Origin: a virus
Length of the DNA: 20,620 bases
Virus record (IMG/VR): IMGVR_UViG_3300011115_000616
Location: 1 to 20,620 of that record
Reading direction: 5' to 3' (one strand)
Program-made: the position numbers and the translations under genes
Notes under the pieces: model-generated
Seen by the model: only the letters and a program-made list of their open reading frames with translations
Told to the model about the DNA's origin: nothing
Database searches by the model: none
Shown here: positions 10,151 through 20,620 of the stretch, in pieces
How the letters are laid out: every line of letters begins with the position of its first letter
Numbering within the stretch: the stretch's first letter is position 1

Positions 10151-10411
10151 CTATTTCCTCTGGTTCCAGCGTTGAATAGCAACCTCAAGCGGTTGATCGG
10201 TATCGTGGTGCGGTCCGATCATCTGGCATTCATCGCATGTAATCGCAATCACATTGGGTTTAACCTCGTCAACAACCACGTCATCATTCCTGCAAAACGG
10301 ACAAGGCAGGATGACGATCTGGCGTTTCTGGCGCTGCTCTCTGGCAGTTTCCCAGCGGTCGAGATCCTGGCTAAATTGGCGCTCAAGCTGATCAAAGGCG
10401 TTTCTGCTCAT
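10151..10411 (-). CDS. Lar-like restriction alleviation / zinc-binding protein (86 aa)
   Basis: I start at ATG 10411 (MSRNAFDQLERQF) because AAGGA lies just upstream and the start overlaps the exonuclease stop (ATGA). An upstream in-frame ATG at 10462 would add 17 residues inside the exonuclease gene. The C-terminal half has LPCPFC...ITCDEC and ends AIQRWNQR, the pattern of the Lar family (LxPCPFCG...C..C...A...WN.R). Lar of the Rac prophage relieves type I restriction in E. coli; family members are widespread in phages. The first half is a charged helix. Anti-restriction is the family-based expectation, not shown here. Confidence 0.7.
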   Translation of the reverse strand: MSRNAFDQLERQFSQDLDRWETAREQRQKRQIVILPCPFCRNDDVVVDEVKPNVIAITCDECQMIGPHHDTDQPLEVAIQRWNQRK

Positions 10412-11541
10412 TTTGATTTCCTTTTTGGGCGACTGCAAATAATGACATTGGCTTTTTCCCACGGCAGATCGTCGACCAGATCCTTGAAATGGTCAACCGG
10501 CGCGGCTGGCGTAATGTCGCAGTCAAACTCGGTTTTAATGCTAGTCAGAGCAAAATCACCGAGCAGTGACTTGTCAACCAGGTTGGTTATGTCTTGGCTG
10601 GTGTAGGTCGGCTGCTGGAACTCGACGTTGGTCAGCTTATTACGGTAGGTCAACAGATTATTACTGGTCGCGTCCATCAACTCGGCGAATCTACCCAACA
10701 GCGTTGGTATGTGGCGGTGCTCTCCGCAGCCGGCACGTTGCGCTGATACGTCCATATCAGGTTTGCCCTGCGCGCAACTCCAGCGGGCCTCTCCGTCGGT
10801 CTCAGGCGTGCTTTGGGCGCAGGTTCTGCAGCTCACCGCGGGCGCTTCCGTTTCGTAGCATTGCGATTTAAACCGGCAGAACTTGCAGGTAAAGTTTGTC
10901 GCATCTTCGGCCAGCGTCACCGCAGGTTCCGGCGACGTGATGATGCGCTCGGCGCGTTGGATCGCCTGATTAAACGCATCCTTGTCAAATTCAATGCGCT
11001 CGGTGTGAATGTCGTCGGTATCCTTGTTGACCATCATATACATGGCTCGCGTCAGGCCAGCCCAGCCCATGTATACTTGCATCTGCACCCAGTGTTGCGG
11101 CTTGGCCTCCTTTACTCCTTTTTTTGTCATCACGGCAAAACTCTTGGCGTTTGCGGTCTTAAATTCGAGCAAATGCGGCGTTTTAGGCGCTTCCGGCAAG
11201 CCCAGGGCAACACCGTCAAGACTGCCTGCAAAATGCCCACCAACGGCTTTATAACGCCACTGGTTGCCTTCTGCGTCCTTATCCCACACCTCAACACCTA
11301 TGGCACGCAGATCCGCGATCAAGCGCGGTTCCTGGTGGTTGCCGCTGTCAAATAACCTGAGCATCCGGCCGTCGAAGTCTGCCGGCTTTGCCCAGCGGAA
11401 TGACAGCCAAAGGTAGCGGTCGCATTCGTGGCCGATCTCGCTGGCACCAAGATGCGAGCGCCCCTGCCGGTCGGCGCTGGTTTCGTAGTGCCGGAATATT
11501 GCGGTTCTGGTGCTGTTCTGTGGCTCTGGTATCTCTGCCAT
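10408..11541 (-). CDS. PD-(D/E)XK exonuclease, Cas4/RecB-like, with Fe-S and second cysteine cluster (377 aa)
   Basis: Nuclease core: GSLDG (Asp109), LLEFKTAN (Glu126-x-Lys128) and QMQVYMGW (Gln153xxxTyr157), the RecB/Cas4 motifs II, III and QxxxY. Cys40 in LGASEIGHECDR together with Cys219, Cys222 and Cys228 (CKFCRFKSQC) matches the C-xn-CxxC-x5-C iron-sulfur set of Cas4/AddB-type nucleases. A second group, Cys238, Cys241, Cys256 and Cys272 with nearby His275/277, may bind zinc. Residues after 280 form an extra C-terminal domain. A GGAGG site precedes the start. It is encoded with a Sak4-like ATPase and a DUF669 protein, consistent with resecting DNA ends for single-strand annealing or recombination. 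Confidence 0.85.
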   Translation of the reverse strand: MAEIPEPQNSTRTAIFRHYETSADRQGRSHLGASEIGHECDRYLWLSFRWAKPADFDGRMLRLFDSGNHQEPRLIADLRAIGVEVWDKDAEGNQWRYKAVGGHFAGSLDGVALGLPEAPKTPHLLEFKTANAKSFAVMTKKGVKEAKPQHWVQMQVYMGWAGLTRAMYMMVNKDTDDIHTERIEFDKDAFNQAIQRAERIITSPEPAVTLAEDATNFTCKFCRFKSQCYETEAPAVSCRTCAQSTPETDGEARWSCAQGKPDMDVSAQRAGCGEHRHIPTLLGRFAELMDATSNNLLTYRNKLTNVEFQQPTYTSQDITNLVDKSLLGDFALTSIKTEFDCDITPAAPVDHFKDLVDDLPWEKANVIICSRPKRKSK

Positions 11542-11559
11542 ACATCCTCCGATGACGCC

Positions 11560-11575
11560 GGGGCGTTGCCGCCCC
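11560..11575 (-). other. intercistronic hairpin with GCAA tetraloop
   Basis: On the leftward mRNA: GGGGCG-GCAA-CGCCCC, a 6-bp all-GC stem closed by a GNRA tetraloop. It sits between the DUF669 stop (11586) and the exonuclease start (11541). No U-run follows, so termination is unlikely; a stability or processing element that sets relative expression is more plausible. Confidence 0.5.
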
Positions 11576-11585
11576 AGCGGGTTAA

Positions 11586-12083
11586 TTACTTTTTAGACCA
11601 GGGCGCTGCCGGTGCCACTTTGCCAGTCGCAAAGCCTGCGGGTGCTGCCGATTTAGCTGCTGCCGGTTTCGGCGCCGGTGCGCCTGTGGCCGTTGAGTAG
11701 CCCTTAATGCGGTTTGTCATCTGGCCTGACACGGGATTATTTTCCTGCACCACATCCACCGTCAGGGGGATATTGTGCAATTCCTCGCTGTCGCCGGGTT
11801 CGAGCACGCCGACACAGTGACAGATGGCGCTCAACTCGCGCTCTGCGATCTGGACCGCGGTCGCGTTGGGGTTGACCAGGTTGAGGCGGGTCCAGAGTTT
11901 CCGGCCGCTGTGCTTGGTGTCGCCGATCACTTCCATGGTCAACATCAAATACTCGCCTGTCCCGGCTTTAGTGTCTTTCATTTCGCTGTCTGTGATGATC
12001 ACCTCGTAGCGGCCGGCGGGGAGTGCGTCAAAACTCTGTTGCGGTTCGATGTTTGCGGCGTTGAAATTATTAAGTGAGGCCAT
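11586..12083 (-). CDS. DUF669 family protein, putative ssDNA-binding protein (165 aa)
   Basis: Starts MASLNNFNAANIEPQQSFDA, then LPAGRYEVIITDSEMKDTKA and TGEYLMLTMEVIGD. This is the DUF669 pattern: an OB-like beta fold in which the ligand-binding strands follow 'AGxYxxxIxxSexKxtk'. The C-terminal 35 residues are a low-complexity Ala/Pro/Lys tail ending in APWSKK, analogous in position to the disordered tail of SSB proteins. DUF669 genes lie beside Sak4-type ATPases in many phages and are thought to bind single-stranded DNA; that role is family inference. The start follows AAGGAAAATAATC and lies two bases beyond the ATPase stop. Confidence 0.8.
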   Translation of the reverse strand: MASLNNFNAANIEPQQSFDALPAGRYEVIITDSEMKDTKAGTGEYLMLTMEVIGDTKHSGRKLWTRLNLVNPNATAVQIAERELSAICHCVGVLEPGDSEELHNIPLTVDVVQENNPVSGQMTNRIKGYSTATGAPAPKPAAAKSAAPAGFATGKVAPAAPWSKK

Positions 12084-12085
12084 GA

Positions 12086-12844
12086 TTATTTTCCTTTTGA
12101 TGGTTTGATTGTTTCGGTTGTGGTCGTCATTGCGTCTGCCAAAGCTGACCAGTCCAACGGCAGTGAATCGGGTAATGAGTATCTGTTTTTGGCAAGGTAG
12201 GCCGGTTTCTCACTGGTATATAACAGGCGCTCGCCGGTGCTGATGCCGCGGCTTACTTTGTTGTTGAAGCCCACATCGCTAGATTTCACGATCGTCTTGT
12301 AATTGGCAAACCCAACCACATCGCACCATTCCTGCACGAGTGCGCTGCTGCGGGCTTGCAGCTTAGGCTGGTATCTTTCATAAGGCTCAACTTCTGGCGA
12401 GTCAAACCGCTTGATCTCACAGTGGGCGAGCAGGATGCTGGCCATGCCTTTGCTACGCAGGGCGGTCAGATCGTCTAACACTTTGCGCCAGAGATCCGCG
12501 GCGATCACCGCCCCTTTGCCATAGGCCAGATCTTTCGCTTCATACTGGCCGTTGATCTGTTCCCAGATCAAGTTATCCAGCCAATCCAAACTGTCGATGA
12601 CGACGGTCTGGAAATCGTGCTCGCCTTGCAGTGATTTGAGTGCATCCTGCACGTCTGCGAACTTGGTCGCCAGCGGGAAATGATCCGCTTCGAGGCGCCC
12701 GAGGCCGTCCTCTGTCAGGATGAATATCGGGTTTGGTGCGCTGGCGCCGAACGTCGTTTTGCCGAGGCCATGCGGTCCATACACCATAATGCGGGGCGGC
12801 TGGATTGCCGTGTTGCGGCTTACTGATTGCAGGTTAATTGCCAT
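12086..12844 (-). CDS. Sak4-like RecA-fold ATPase / single-strand annealing protein (252 aa)
   Basis: Walker A is GPHGLGKT at residues 23-30 (after PPRIMVY) and Walker B is VVID at 81-84 (FQTVVIDSLDWL). A further conserved block ILLAHCEIKRFDSPEVEPYE lies near 135-155. This is the phage nucleotide-binding AAA_24/Sak4 group, a shortened RecA/Rad51-type core that promotes strand annealing of ssDNA in phage recombination. The length of about 250 aa is typical. Upstream AACGGAGGAATC gives a strong ribosome binding site that overlaps the end of a 29-codon gene. With the DUF669 protein and the exonuclease downstream it forms a coherent recombination module. Confidence 0.87.
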   Translation of the reverse strand: MAINLQSVSRNTAIQPPRIMVYGPHGLGKTTFGASAPNPIFILTEDGLGRLEADHFPLATKFADVQDALKSLQGEHDFQTVVIDSLDWLDNLIWEQINGQYEAKDLAYGKGAVIAADLWRKVLDDLTALRSKGMASILLAHCEIKRFDSPEVEPYERYQPKLQARSSALVQEWCDVVGFANYKTIVKSSDVGFNNKVSRGISTGERLLYTSEKPAYLAKNRYSLPDSLPLDWSALADAMTTTTETIKPSKGK

Positions 12845-16062: not shown

Positions 16063-16253
16063 ACGTCAAAAACGCCATCAGACCTGAAAACATGGTCTGC
16101 CCAAGCTGCGGCTGCAAGAACTTCCAGACGGTCGAACGGGCGGCTGGGCAGTCGTTTGTCTGCAAGGACTGTCGCAAGACTTACAAGCGAAAATCAACTA
16201 GTGGATCCGGCGTTATTGCGGGGCCGGTTTATTATCGGACTCAAGAGCTATGA
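16059..16253 (+). CDS. small zinc-ribbon protein (64 aa)
   Basis: Starts at ATG 16059 (MNVKNAIRPENMVCPSCGCK), overlapping the HTH gene's stop (ATGA) and preceded by GAGGGTGG. Cys14/Cys17 and Cys35/Cys38 (CPSC...CKDC) form a zinc ribbon like those of transcription or replication proteins. A basic RKTYKRK follows, then a short Ser/Gly tail. Its position directly before the primase-helicase, and the presence of a zinc ribbon in many primases, make a replication-accessory role possible. That is inference. Confidence 0.6.
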   Translation: MNVKNAIRPENMVCPSCGCKNFQTVERAAGQSFVCKDCRKTYKRKSTSGSGVIAGPVYYRTQEL

Positions 16254-16267
16254 ACCGAGGGGATAGC

Positions 16268-18382
16268 ATGACAGACACAGAGAAAGGCGCTGCAAAAGCC
16301 AGCGTCAAGAACAGCGAATTCCTGCAACTGCTCTATGCCGGTATTCCAGAGAAGTCTAGCCTGTGGGTTACCTCGTTCTACGGCAATCCTGATTTGACGG
16401 ACAGCGGCAACTGGTTTGGGCGCCCATATCGCCCCGACAAGCACGCGCTGGTCGACTCAATGGTCACCGTAAATTCCTATTTCTCGGTGGCCGCACTCTC
16501 GCCGACCGCAGACGGGGAAGTGCGGCGCCGGAAGGCGAACTTTGAACAGATACTGGTCCTGGTCGCCGACGATGCGCTGATCGACGACATAAAAGGCACT
16601 GTGTCGTATGTGCTCAACACGTCACCCGGCAAAGCGCAGATCGGCATCTTTATCGACAAGGATGATCCTGACGCTAAAAACCGCAATCTGGTCGACTCGA
16701 TCGTCACGCGCATGGCCGAGAACGGTTTGCTGCGAGCTGACGCCAGCGGGAACAACAGTGTGCGTTATGTGCGCCTGCCGGTAGGTCAGAATCAGAAACC
16801 GCGGGAAACGGGGCCGTGGGATCACCAGCTTGCAGTCTGGAACGCCGACTGCGTGCTCTCACTGGCCGATGCCGCGGCAGTATTCGGGATTGATGTGGAC
16901 GAGCTGCGGAAGATCAAAGAGGCGGCGCCGGCCGACAGCAAAAGCTCAATCTACGATGGCCAGGCCGATCTGCTGCGTCTGACGGCCAGCAATATCGTGC
17001 GCGGCGAGCGGTTGCACGAATCTATCAACGAGATGGCGTTTAGCCTGGTTGCCTGCGGCACACACCCCGGCACCGTGGTGAGCACGCTGCGCGGGTTGAT
17101 GGAATCGTCACTGGTGGCGAAGGATGAACGCTGGAAAGCACGATACGACGATATCCCGCGCTCGGTGACGACGGCGGTGGAGAAACTGAAGGATGATAAA
17201 ACGCTGGAAGTCACGCCGCAAAATCACCCGTTTGCAAATTTCTTGCCCTATGCGCTGGGCGATTTAGAACCCGACGAATTTATATTCGACGACATTCTGA
17301 TCGCTGGCGTAACCCTGCTGGCCGGGTTCACAGGTATCGGCAAGACCACCGCGCTGGTGCCGTTGATGACTAAGGCGGCGCATTTGTGCGCGGCCGACGA
17401 CGGGCTAAAGCCACTGCTACGCCGCAAGGTGATTTATGTGTCAGAAGATCCTAAGCAGGTCGTGCGGGTTCTAACCTCGATGCGGGTGGCCGGTGAGCTA
17501 ACAGCCAGCGACGCAGAAATCAGCGAATGGTTCAAGATCGTGCCTGCCAAACGCATGGATGCGGCGTCCATCGTAAAAGTGCGGGAAATCTACGAAGCGA
17601 TGGTCTATCGTAATAACTCCGCAAAATCGGGGTTTTTTTACGATGCGCTGCCGATCGTGGTGCTGGATACCAGTAATGCGACCATTGAGCTGGAAAATGA
17701 ATCTGACAACTCAGAAGTCGGGAAAGCGGTTTCAACACTCAAAAGCGAGCTGGGTGGGATCCCGCTTATTATTGTGGCGCATTTAGCCAAGACGCTTAAA
17801 AAGGCCGATATCAGCGACATGACCAGCCGCGGTGCCGGTGCTTGGGAAGGCGACGTTAATCAAGTGCTCTACATGACAAAAGAGGATGACGGCGCCCGGT
17901 GGCTGGACGTTGCCCAGGCCAAGCACCGGTTTGTTACCAAAGCCGACGGCATTGTGTTTCGCGCAGTCGCATCAGAAATAAAGGGTCGGGATGTGCTCGG
18001 AAACGAAAAAGACCTGTTTTTGATGCACTGTCGGCCGGAAATGGTGCAGAAGGGCGGTCGGGAGGCTATGCAGGAACAGTCAAAACAGGCCGCTGCGCGT
18101 AATAAAGAGATCGCCGAGCAGATGGTTAAGGTCAGCAGGAAAAAGCGCGTGACGGCCATTCTGGACGCGCTGGCGGTCGGGGAATACAAAACCAAGAGCG
18201 AGCTGTCAAAAGACATGGGCGGCAGAAAGGATAATAACCTTGAGCTGATCGACCAGATGGTCAGCGATGGCTTAATCGAGCAGTTTGTGCCTGCCGCCAA
18301 GCGCGATAAGAATCATAATAACGGCTATCGGCTGACCAAGAACGGGGCGCAGGAATACGGTAATTTAAGTAATGGCGTTTAG
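16268..18382 (+). CDS. phage primase-helicase: RepB-like primase domain fused to RepA/AAA_25 ATPase (704 aa)
   Basis: I start at ATG 16268 because GAGGGG lies just upstream; the in-frame ATG 16250 overlaps the zinc-ribbon stop but has no clear site. Residues about 30-210 resemble a RepB-type primase: YVLNTSPGKAQIGIF, then VRYVRLPVGQNQKP at 165-178, the conserved RLP.G.N.K block. Residues about 325-580 are a RecA-fold ATPase with Walker A GFTGIGKTT (353-361) and Walker B IVVLD (463-467), as in RepA helicases. The last 70 residues look like a winged helix (KTKSELSKDMGGRKDNNLEL). The product should prime and unwind DNA for phage replication. The likely origin repeats begin at its stop codon. Confidence 0.85.
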   Translation: MTDTEKGAAKASVKNSEFLQLLYAGIPEKSSLWVTSFYGNPDLTDSGNWFGRPYRPDKHALVDSMVTVNSYFSVAALSPTADGEVRRRKANFEQILVLVADDALIDDIKGTVSYVLNTSPGKAQIGIFIDKDDPDAKNRNLVDSIVTRMAENGLLRADASGNNSVRYVRLPVGQNQKPRETGPWDHQLAVWNADCVLSLADAAAVFGIDVDELRKIKEAAPADSKSSIYDGQADLLRLTASNIVRGERLHESINEMAFSLVACGTHPGTVVSTLRGLMESSLVAKDERWKARYDDIPRSVTTAVEKLKDDKTLEVTPQNHPFANFLPYALGDLEPDEFIFDDILIAGVTLLAGFTGIGKTTALVPLMTKAAHLCAADDGLKPLLRRKVIYVSEDPKQVVRVLTSMRVAGELTASDAEISEWFKIVPAKRMDAASIVKVREIYEAMVYRNNSAKSGFFYDALPIVVLDTSNATIELENESDNSEVGKAVSTLKSELGGIPLIIVAHLAKTLKKADISDMTSRGAGAWEGDVNQVLYMTKEDDGARWLDVAQAKHRFVTKADGIVFRAVASEIKGRDVLGNEKDLFLMHCRPEMVQKGGREAMQEQSKQAAARNKEIAEQMVKVSRKKRVTAILDALAVGEYKTKSELSKDMGGRKDNNLELIDQMVSDGLIEQFVPAAKRDKNHNNGYRLTKNGAQEYGNLSNGV

Positions 18383-18550
18383 GGAACCGCATGTAACCGA
18401 GTGCCTATTTTTTAAGCAGTTGTATGCGGTTCCCGTACATGCGGTTTCCCTTAAGGGTAAAAACCTCGGGAACCGCATCTTTGTTGATGCAGTTCCCAAT
18501 TCACCCGATGTTCTGGGAACCACATGAAACCGCATGAAACCGCATGAACA
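18382..18550. repeat. iteron-like repeat field, consensus GGGAACCGCATG, candidate replication origin
   Basis: The 184-base gap after the primase-helicase holds at least eight copies or near-copies. Forward: 18382-18393, 18468-18478, and 18515-18526 (with CACATG), the last followed in tandem by AAACCGCATG at 18527-18536 and 18537-18546. Reverse: 18424-18434, 18437-18450 (one extra T) and 18487-18497 (one mismatch). A CCCTTAAGGG palindrome lies at 18448-18457 between the reverse and forward groups. Repeated binding sites beside a replication gene suggest an origin or initiator autoregulation site. No open frame of note occupies the gap. Confidence 0.7.
18468..18497. other. hairpin formed by opposed iteron-like copies
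   Basis: GGGAACCGCATC (18468-18479), loop TTTGTT, GATGCAGTTCCC (18486-18497): a 12-bp stem with one mismatch. It could extrude as a cruciform at an origin or fold in the transcript. No U-run follows, so it is not an obvious terminator. Confidence 0.55.
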
Positions 18551-18566
18551 CTTTTAGGGGTAAGAC

Positions 18567-18875
18567 ATGACACCAACCCAACGCAGTCTGGCCGCTCTCC
18601 GCGAACTCGGTTATCTGGTCGAAGTCGTCGAAAAATGGAATTCGTTTACCCGAACGCGTAAGGATCTTTGGGGCTGGGCCGATCTGCTGGCCATCCGGCG
18701 CGGCGAGGTGCTCGCGGTCCAAGTCACCAGCGAGGGCGTGGCCAACAGGGTCAAAAAGGTTACGGACTCGGAAACCATCGCCCGGGTGCGCGAGGCTGGG
18801 GTTCGGGTCGAGGTTCACGGTTGGCGTAAGAACGTAAAAGGGCGCTACGTGCAGCGAATTGTCGATTTATCCTAA
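18567..18875 (+). CDS. small PD-(D/E)XK-like phage nuclease-fold protein (102 aa)
   Basis: ATG 18567 follows AGGGG. The protein begins MTPTQRSLAALRELGYLVEV, then RTRKDLWGWADLLAI and GEVLAVQVTSEGVANRVKKV. This is the strand pattern of small restriction-endonuclease-fold proteins common in phages: Asp39 after 'DLxGxxD' and a strand 'LAVQVTS' where an E-x-K would normally sit. The acidic/Lys pair is replaced by Gln52-Val-Thr54, so catalysis is uncertain, although that substitution is usual in this phage group as I recall it. A role in resolving or degrading DNA near replication is possible. The last gene before a small promoter-bearing gap. Confidence 0.7.
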   Translation: MTPTQRSLAALRELGYLVEVVEKWNSFTRTRKDLWGWADLLAIRRGEVLAVQVTSEGVANRVKKVTDSETIARVREAGVRVEVHGWRKNVKGRYVQRIVDLS

Positions 18876-18879
18876 ATTT

Positions 18880-18908
18880 TTGACTTGCACGCGAAATTAT
18901 TGTGCACT
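18880..18908 (+). promoter_or_regulatory. possible promoter before the terminase-proximal genes
   Basis: TTGACT (18880-18885) matches the -35 consensus in five of six. At 17 bases spacing the -10 position is TGCACT, which is poor; TAAACT (18908-18913) is better but too far away. TGCAC (18886-18890) and GTGCA (18902-18906) form an inverted repeat within the site, suggesting a controlled promoter. The 147-base gap to 19023 holds no convincing gene; GGGCGCT occurs in it three times (18918, 18978, 19015). Confidence 0.3.
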
Positions 18909-19022
18909 AAACTGGCTGGGCGCTGATCTCCTCCGTGAAGCGCATCCCTACCCGCTAAACGGCGACTTGAGCGATGCGGGCGCTCACCCGGCGGTCGCCG
19001 TTGCCTATCTGAAAGGGCGCTT

Positions 19023-19388
19023 GTGGACTATCAGAAGAACGCCGCGCTGTTTGTGTCTGTGCTGTTTCATAGCGGCACGAACGCTCATTTCATGCACTTG
19101 CAGACAAAAAGTTACAGCGAGCACAAGGCGCTTCAGAAATACTACGAAGGCATCATCGACATCGTTGATCGCTGGGCCGAGGCGTTTCAGGGTTGTTATT
19201 CAGTGATCGAAACGTATCCGGCCGATTTTCATATTGCCAAATTGCCGCTGAAATATCTGGAACAGATTAAAGATTTTGTGGACTCGATCCGCAAGGTGTT
19301 ACCGGACGAAACGCAACTGCAAAACATTATTGACGAGGCGTGCGAGCTGATTGACTCAACGATCTACAAGCTGAAGGTGCTGAAATAA
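19023..19388 (+). CDS. DUF5856-like helical phage protein (121 aa)
   Basis: GTG 19023 is the start that fits AAAGGG at 19012-19017; no in-frame ATG precedes it. The sequence contains ALFVSVLFHSGTNAHFMHLQ, KSYSEHKALQKYYEGIIDIV and, near the end, NIIDEACELIDSTIYKLK. This looks like an all-helical bundle with His and Glu residues in the helices, reminiscent of ferritin/Dps-like folds. I associate it with DUF5856, found in many phages, function unknown. The stop overlaps the next ATG (TAATG). The family label is from memory and should be searched. Confidence 0.6.
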   Translation: MDYQKNAALFVSVLFHSGTNAHFMHLQTKSYSEHKALQKYYEGIIDIVDRWAEAFQGCYSVIETYPADFHIAKLPLKYLEQIKDFVDSIRKVLPDETQLQNIIDEACELIDSTIYKLKVLK

Positions 19389-19679: not shown

Positions 19680-19853
19680 ATGCCTTCCGGCTCACCAGCT
19701 CAAGCCCGCCTGATGGCCGCGGCCGCGCACGATCCGAAGTTTGCTAAGAAGGTCGGCGTGCCGGTTTCTGTGGCGCGAGACTTTAACCAGGCGGATAAGG
19801 GTAAGAAGCTGGCCGAGGCTATGAAGCGGATGCCCGAAAAGAAAAATGGCTAA
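19680..19853 (+). CDS. small basic phage protein preceding the terminase genes (57 aa)
   Basis: ATG 19680 (MPSGSPAQARLMAAAAHDPK), one base after the previous stop. The N-terminal 'MPS.S.aQarlM.aaAh' pattern followed by FAKKVGVPVSVARDFNQADK is that of short phage proteins that often sit immediately before the small terminase gene (DUF3008-like group, from memory). It is basic and helical, with no membrane segment. Its end overlaps the next gene by eight bases. Function unknown. Confidence 0.6.
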   Translation: MPSGSPAQARLMAAAAHDPKFAKKVGVPVSVARDFNQADKGKKLAEAMKRMPEKKNG

Positions 19854-20145
19854 CGCAGGACAATTTAAAAAAGGCGACAAAAGGCCAGGGGCGGGCCGGC
19901 CTAAAGGGTTGCAGAACAAAGCAACCATAGTCGCCAAAGAAGCGATTGCTCGTTTTGTCGACGGCAACGCCGACCGGCTGCAAGAGTGGCTGGATCAGAT
20001 CGCAGTGCAGGACGGGCCGCAGGCGGCTTTTAAATGCTTTTCAGATCTGCTTGAATACCATGTGCCCAAACTGTCACGCGCAGAGGTCAGCGGGCCTGAT
20101 GGCGGGCCGCAGGTCGTCGAAGCCACTTGGCGGCTGGCCGAGTGA
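19846..20145 (+). CDS. putative terminase small subunit (99 aa)
   Basis: Begins MANAGQFKKGDKRPGAGRPK and continues GLQNKATIVAKEAIARFVDG. The basic, Gly/Arg/Pro-rich N-terminal 'GqFKkG..RPGaGRPKG..NK' arm followed by a helical domain is typical of phage DNA-packaging or small terminase proteins (DUF5681-like arm). The small subunit recognises the packaging site and hands DNA to the large subunit, whose gene follows with a GTGA overlap. The subunit role is inferred from arm and position. The acidic C-terminus reads VVEATWRLAE. Confidence 0.7.
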   Translation: MANAGQFKKGDKRPGAGRPKGLQNKATIVAKEAIARFVDGNADRLQEWLDQIAVQDGPQAAFKCFSDLLEYHVPKLSRAEVSGPDGGPQVVEATWRLAE

Positions 20146-20620
20146 ATATCGTTAAAGTCGAGATCCCATACGCGCCCAGACGGGCGTTTATGCCTTTCCA
20201 CAACCGAACGCATCGCTGGGCCTGCCTGGTCGCGCACCGGCGAGCAGGTAAGACCGTTGCCGCTATCAACGACATGATTCGCGCTGCTTTCACCAGCAAG
20301 GACTCGATGCCGCTTTATGGTTACGTGGCGCCGTATCGCAGCCAAGCTAAATCGGTGGTTTGGGATTATCTCAAGCACTACAGCCGGCCGATCAGCAAGG
20401 ATGCCAACGAAGCAGAATTAACGGTCACGCTGCTGAATAACAGCAAGATCCGACTATTCGGCGCTGACAACGCAGATGCGATGCGCGGGCTGGGTTTCTC
20501 TGGCGTTTACTTGGATGAATTCGGCGACTTTAAGCCGAGCGTATGGGGTAACGTGGTCCGGCCGGCGCTCAGTGACAAGCAGGGCTGGTGCGTGTTTGGC
20601 GGCACGCCGAAGGGCAAAAA
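20142..20620 (+). CDS. terminase large subunit, N-terminal ATPase part (3' end outside window)
   Basis: GTG 20142 overlaps the previous stop (GTGA). The 159 visible codons carry the packaging-ATPase motifs: Walker A AHRRAGKT (residues 31-38), the adenine/Q-like region FMPFHNRTHRWACLV just before it, Walker B VYLDEFGDF (122-130) with catalytic Glu126, and the coupling motif GGTPKGK (153-159) where the window ends. The C-terminal nuclease domain lies outside. It powers translocation of DNA into the procapsid and cuts the genome. The gene continues to the right, with portal and capsid genes expected beyond. Confidence 0.93.
   Translation, partial: MNIVKVEIPYAPRRAFMPFHNRTHRWACLVAHRRAGKTVAAINDMIRAAFTSKDSMPLYGYVAPYRSQAKSVVWDYLKHYSRPISKDANEAELTVTLLNNSKIRLFGADNADAMRGLGFSGVYLDEFGDFKPSVWGNVVRPALSDKQGWCVFGGTPKGK

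Follow-up and report, generated by a model that had tools for sequence, protein, structure and literature searches.

The window analysed here is a stretch of viral DNA of 20,620 nucleotides (positions 1 to 20,620 of the IMG/VR virus record IMGVR_UViG_3300011115_000616). A replication protein of 710 aa, encoded on the plus strand at positions 16250-18382, is made of an N-terminal module (residues 1-~316), a RepA/SF4-type helicase (~316-~610) and a predicted C-terminal winged helix-turn-helix (~636-710). The gene is followed by an array of short repeats (18382-18546), by a gene encoding 102 aa (18567-18875, plus strand), which has no match in Pfam or PHROGs, and by a TerS/TerL pair (19846-20618). 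A recombination cassette, which includes a Cas4-like exonuclease, a DUF669 SSB-like protein and a Sak4-like AAA_24 protein, resides on the minus strand at 10408-12844. The window overlaps both ends of a near-identical contig, G001 (IMGVR_UViG_3300011114_000296, 34239 bp), and the genome, of about 35 kb, therefore appears circular or circularly permuted.

AAA_25 is the sole Pfam domain recognised in the 710-aa protein (E 2.6e-8), and a Walker A motif, GFTGIGKTT, is present in the helicase core. The fold predicted for residues 316-710 from an alignment of 30 sequences (pLDDT 83) finds its best match in the hexameric helicase RepA of RSF1010 (E 3e-9), and the top Foldseek matches for the helicase region are 1olo, 1nlf and 1g8y. 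Profile searches revealed no sequence similarity to any solved RepA chain, so that the kinship to RSF1010 RepA is solely one of fold. The C-terminal domain, modelled as a helix-helix-helix-strand-wing-strand succession (pLDDT about 85-91) and weakly matched by Pfam winged-helix models (HTH_24, E 5.7e-5, in the L003 homologue; HTH_45, E 0.04, in the window protein), is predicted to be a winged helix-turn-helix. The N-terminal module of the window protein has no Pfam match, is modelled at a pLDDT of 40 only, and showed no likeness to another type of N-terminal module with which it was compared. Prim-Pol plus PriCT domains replace it in two relatives endowed with the same helicase (L005, L020), and a RepB_primase domain is found in the homologue of a Propionivibrio MAG; because relatives with the same helicase carry such domains at this place, a primase function of the window module is plausible. 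The gene had been called a primase-helicase in an earlier note on this DNA. The primase half of the name is not borne out in the window, as the N-terminal module lacks a Pfam match, though Prim-Pol is found in relatives with nearly the same helicase. The module (16250-17197) stands in for Prim-Pol/PriCT with a constant boundary near residue 317, and does so ahead of helicase modules as different as the window type and the L012 type, in a modular exchange of the presumed primase. An in-frame insert of roughly 117-141 bp, flanked by the short duplication TCGGCAAGACCACCG, breaks the helicase Walker A in L006 (750-890). The insert is missing in L005, otherwise 99% identical there, and is possibly an assembly error.

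About nine GGGAACCGCATG-like units, set in both orientations around CCCTTAAGGG (18448-18457), fill the interval 18382-18546. The array begins directly 3' of the helicase gene stop, and ends just short of the next ribosome binding site. Unit 1 (GGGAACCGCATG, 18382-18393, plus strand) is accompanied, 10 bp after it, by a degenerate AACCG unit (AACCGAGTG, 18395-18403). Two inverted units follow, ATGCGGTTCCC (18424-18434) and CATGCGGTTTCC (18438-18449), both on the minus strand. The constant core, CCCTTAAGGG-TAAAAACCTC (18448-18467), features a CCTWAAGG-like sequence retained in most relatives despite changes of the surrounding units. Next comes a hairpin (18468-18497), formed by a plus unit (GGGAACCGCATC, 18468-18479), a loop of 6 nt and a minus unit (GATGCAGTTCCC, 18486-18497). 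Three tandem plus units close the array, GGGAACCACATG (18515-18526) and two copies of AAACCGCATG (18527-18536 and 18537-18546), all three in register at a period of 10 bp. The earlier note, which counted at least eight copies or near-copies within about 170 bases, had described the region rightly: the repeats lie at the place it gave, and two inverted units in a row, a hairpin pair and three tandem 10-base units were all recovered.

GAACCGCAT, searched at up to one mismatch, is found 8 times in the 165-bp array and 7 times in the remaining 20.4 kb, where no copy is exact. At the same threshold AACCGCATG has 16 matches in the window (shuffle mean 7.9, maximum 14), 7 of which reside inside the array. 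Within the 260 nt past the stop, 47 pairs of matching 8-mers were counted versus 1.8 expected, a number reached by none of 200 shuffles, made as first-order Markov resamplings. All four exact AACCGCATG copies in G001 (34.2 kb) fall at the array site. The repeat motif is essentially confined to a single site in a phage genome of ~35 kb. Scattering of the motif along the genome, which the earlier note would have taken as evidence against its reading, is clearly not observed in the window or in G001.

No RNA family of Rfam was matched in the window. The hairpin, followed by GAGGTTTTT, resembles an intrinsic terminator of the minus strand; such structures were counted at chance level and leave the array unexplained, and termination on the minus strand may be a side function of the hairpin. 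Cumulative GC skew makes no turn near 18.4 kb. The inflection which the earlier note asked for at this place is, to the letter, missing, and skew lends no support to an origin; it tracks gene orientation, and is for this reason not diagnostic here.

Searches of viral contigs and genomes provided ~107 usable loci. The relatives are uncultured phage contigs, several of the loci are fragments of uncultured viruses in which assembly errors are possible, and some are near-duplicates, so that locus counts do not equal independent events. In 57/107 loci a significant array begins as soon as the homologous gene has ended; among these 57 is the Propionivibrio MAG homologue, 44% identical. Eleven other loci, which encode related winged helices, carry 6-10 copies of ATCGTTCG at 0.6-2.4 kb downstream, and in ~38/107 loci no clear array was found within the few kb of sequence examined. 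The retention of the array, made of other units, at the equivalent position in close relatives clearly runs against the possibility, raised in the earlier note, that relatives keep the gene and lack repeats. A DNA search for the array among annotated phages returned nothing meaningful, and the annotated phage records searched hold no close relative of the replication protein (best match, 28% over 45%). The helicase module has no relative in plasmids, and among 399 genomes from the order to which the Propionivibrio MAG belongs, this MAG alone matched. A distant homologue (28% identity) occurs in a single annotated phage, MW202879 (L051), in which a weak cluster of repeats, CTTGGGGA, is likewise located at the gene stop (L051:4160-4480).

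Arrays have been sorted according to the repeated unit. Units of the alpha type (GAACCGCATG) reside in the window, L005-L009, L024 and L019, beta units (CTACCGCATG) in L003 and L010, gamma units (GGGAACAGCAG) in L004 and L020-L023. Other loci feature GGGAACCGG (L012, L013, L015-L018), GGAAACGATCG (L011, L014), TACCGCTAAT (L131-L146, L151), ATACCACATG (L147-L150), GGGAGCGGGTT (L156, L157) or ATCGTTCG (L085, L102). The layout is recurrent: units come first, then inverted ones, then a CCTWAAGG-like core, which an A-rich stretch often follows, then a unit, a hairpin or both, and last tandem units spaced 9-12 bp apart. The core was identified in most families, and was not recovered in several with the pattern used; a hairpin of altered sequence follows it also in other families. 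At the site, alpha, beta and gamma loci each have 8-12 copies of the unit proper to them, and neither of the other two units occurs. Change is thus concerted, as every copy within one phage shifts to the same version on a shared scaffold. In some members of the TACCGCTAAT group (L136, L139, L144, L151) a second array, made of a different unit (ATGTTGCA / GTTGGACA), is found about 2 kb past the helicase stop.

The type of unit tracks only the last 60-80 residues of the helicase, which correspond to the predicted winged helix; no such match is seen with the N-terminal module, with the core of the helicase, with the gene that comes next or with the terminase. L003 and L004 have identical N-terminal modules (100%) and nearly identical helicases (98%); their winged helices, compared over the last 80 residues, are 53% identical, and the similarity of the units is 0. 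Likewise, L011 and L012 share the N-terminal module (99%) and the helicase (98%), differ in the winged helix (58%), and have units of similarity 0. The opposite is seen in L003 and L010 (N-terminal module 20%, helicase 93%, winged helix 84%, unit 0.96), and in L004 and L020 (18%, 78%, 81% and 0.94, respectively). Over all pairs, unit and winged helix have a partial correlation of 0.36 (Mantel p <= 0.001) once helicase and N-terminal module are accounted for. It rises to 0.66-0.69 when only pairs whose helicases are more than 60-80% identical are taken, and the helicase then scores -0.14 to -0.32; with helicases >80% alike the values are 0.69 for the tail and -0.32 for the helicase. The match is not one-to-one over the whole domain, because L132 and L133 have alike units (0.94) though their winged helices are just 50% identical.

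Sliding identity, plotted for eight pairs of loci, changes abruptly on either side of the stop, near -180/-240 and near +180. L012 and L011 are ~95% identical up to -181, 52-67% across -180 to +179, and again 83-95% alike beyond, past an extra gene present in L011. In the mirror pairs L003/L010 and L004/L020 similarity peaks in that same block around the stop. In the window the block corresponds to 18140-18560, that is the last ~60-80 codons, encoding the winged helix, plus the array. To judge from these profiles, winged-helix codons and array are swapped as one cassette of about 360-420 bp.

Contiguous DNA is moved by recombination. Because most loci have the winged-helix codons right beside the array, the link between the two is partly physical. 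Arrays unrelated to the protein could in principle hitch-hike with the adjoining 3' end of the gene, an explanation to which we assign a very low likelihood. All 8-9 separate copies change alike on a conserved scaffold. The other immediate neighbour of the array, the 102-aa gene about 20 bp away, which served as a flank control, is independent of the type of repeat: the window copy is 96-99% identical to those in loci with differing arrays (L003, L004, L012, L013), and 66-68% identical to those of L005 and L024, which share the unit of the window. Moreover, a clade with very similar tails (L063, L066, L068, L074-L076, L078, L081, L087, L107, L111) keeps ATCGTTCG, and thereby the pairing of unit and winged helix, across 0.6-2.4 kb of intervening DNA, at many different distances. 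Flank control and displaced arrays weaken the contribution of physical linkage, without abolishing it. The terminase genes lend themselves to a similar comparison. Packaging (pac) sites are often near terS, and the TerS/TerL pair lies about 1.3-1.5 kb downstream, but recognition of the repeats by the small terminase seems extremely improbable, as the unit tracks the winged helix of the helicase. L013 has the next gene (99%), a DUF5856 gene (100%), TerS (100%) and TerL (100%) in common with the window, and features another helicase module and other repeats; L005, in turn, has the repeats of the window and a TerL which is 35% identical.

Iteron arrays of plasmids often serve also as operators, and the end of the array just precedes the next ribosome binding site. 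The repeats might accordingly be bound by the winged helix of the helicase, or by another regulator, controlling the downstream genes or the operon of the helicase itself. That this is their main role is very improbable. No sigma-70-like promoter was detected within 18000-19100 of the window, and neither the motif scan of the window nor the exact AACCGCATG copies in G001 revealed a second array, be it ahead of the helicase gene or at any other place; the autoregulatory operator, which the earlier note considered as an alternative, thus loses ground. An operator dedicated to the next gene does not fit, as this gene and array type vary independently: loci that share an array have different downstream genes (L004/L020, window/L005), and one and the same downstream gene is preceded by different arrays in other loci. 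A secondary regulatory role of the array may coexist with another function.

The reading that we favour, with a probability of roughly 0.8, is that 18382-18546 is a replication origin, and that its iterons would be bound by the RepA-type helicase of the preceding gene, through the winged helix at the C-terminus. Short direct and inverted repeats cluster beside a putative initiator gene, the position of the array is kept in relatives, and the units are matched to the predicted DNA-binding domain, as in iteron-type origins. The iteron reading of the earlier note gains strong support from the confinement of the motif to one site, and from arrays at the equivalent place in close relatives. We envisage that winged helices would sit on units one helical turn apart, and that inverted arms and tandem arm would place and load the hexameric helicase at the constant core, which would open. 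Hairpin and opened strand might then be primed before a polymerase takes over; in relatives the Prim-Pol or RepB-like module at the N-terminus would do so, in the window phage a module of unrecognised type. New types of units could arise, or be imported, together with the matching winged helix.

No annotated phage record searched has a close relative of the replication protein; for the start of replication in these uncultured phages, a concrete candidate origin and a predicted binding domain are now offered. Near-identical proteins which differ only in a tail of 60-80 residues, each with its own 10-bp unit, are a ready set for studies on sequence choice by winged helices. The same series is suited to ask whether origin specificity separates co-infecting phages. 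More speculatively, and with considerable doubt, cassettes might define replication-compatibility groups in the phage population, concerted diversification and exchange being driven by antagonists that read the origin, either satellites borrowing the helicase or origin-directed nucleases as in ICP1/PLE. If true, the matched pairs would represent a natural protein-DNA recognition code.

Type-specific origins are likewise featured by lambdoid O proteins and SaPI Rep proteins. The helicase of the P4 alpha protein belongs to SF3, and the P4 origin and crr are separate sites. In P4 alpha, a helicase and a C-terminal winged helix which binds origin repeats are part of one protein (PMC4234260, citing Ziegelin and Lanka 1995; Yeo et al. 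2002), the primase of which is of the Toprim type (PMC4234260). The window protein similarly combines a helicase and a predicted C-terminal winged helix; in contrast to P4 alpha, the helicase is RepA/SF4-type, and the primases of relatives are Prim-Pol or RepB-like. The Toprim primase plus SF3 helicase that denote the P4 alpha family were not found in the window protein, which has a RecA/SF4-type helicase and no recognised primase domain. In the IncQ plasmid RSF1010, RepC binds the oriV iterons and RepB' primes at ssi hairpins (PMC4234260). RSF1010 provides the closest fold for the helicase core, and iterons plus hairpins mark its origin as they mark the putative one described here. However, RepA, RepB' and RepC are three separate proteins, whereas here helicase and predicted DNA-binding domain, and in relatives the primase too, make one polypeptide, and the array resides directly behind the gene.

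ORF904 of pRN1 is a primase-helicase-winged helix protein, and the origin, directly downstream of the gene, varies in sequence between conserved flanks (PMC4234260). A variable, putative origin similarly lies here behind the gene of a helicase-winged helix protein, but the pRN1 helicase is of the SF3 type, and one stem-loop of 100 nt is used, free of iterons. In the PLE satellites of Vibrio cholerae the DNA-binding domain of RepA co-varies with the origin, modules are exchanged, and only cognate pairs support replication; an origin-directed nuclease has been proposed as the driver of the exchange (PMC8263062). The exchange of a DNA-binding domain, here predicted, and of an origin as one module is common to both, but PLE RepA, carried by a satellite, is an initiator of the RepA_N type, which binds through an N-terminal domain and lacks a helicase, whereas here a phage would have its own helicase-initiator. 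Precedents for single features of the locus thus exist in P4 alpha, RSF1010, pRN1 and the RepA/ori modules of PLE satellites. New are a phage-borne lineage, in which a RepA-type helicase is joined to a predicted C-terminal winged helix and its gene is followed by a putative origin, and the naturally occurring set of matched, exchangeable cassettes.
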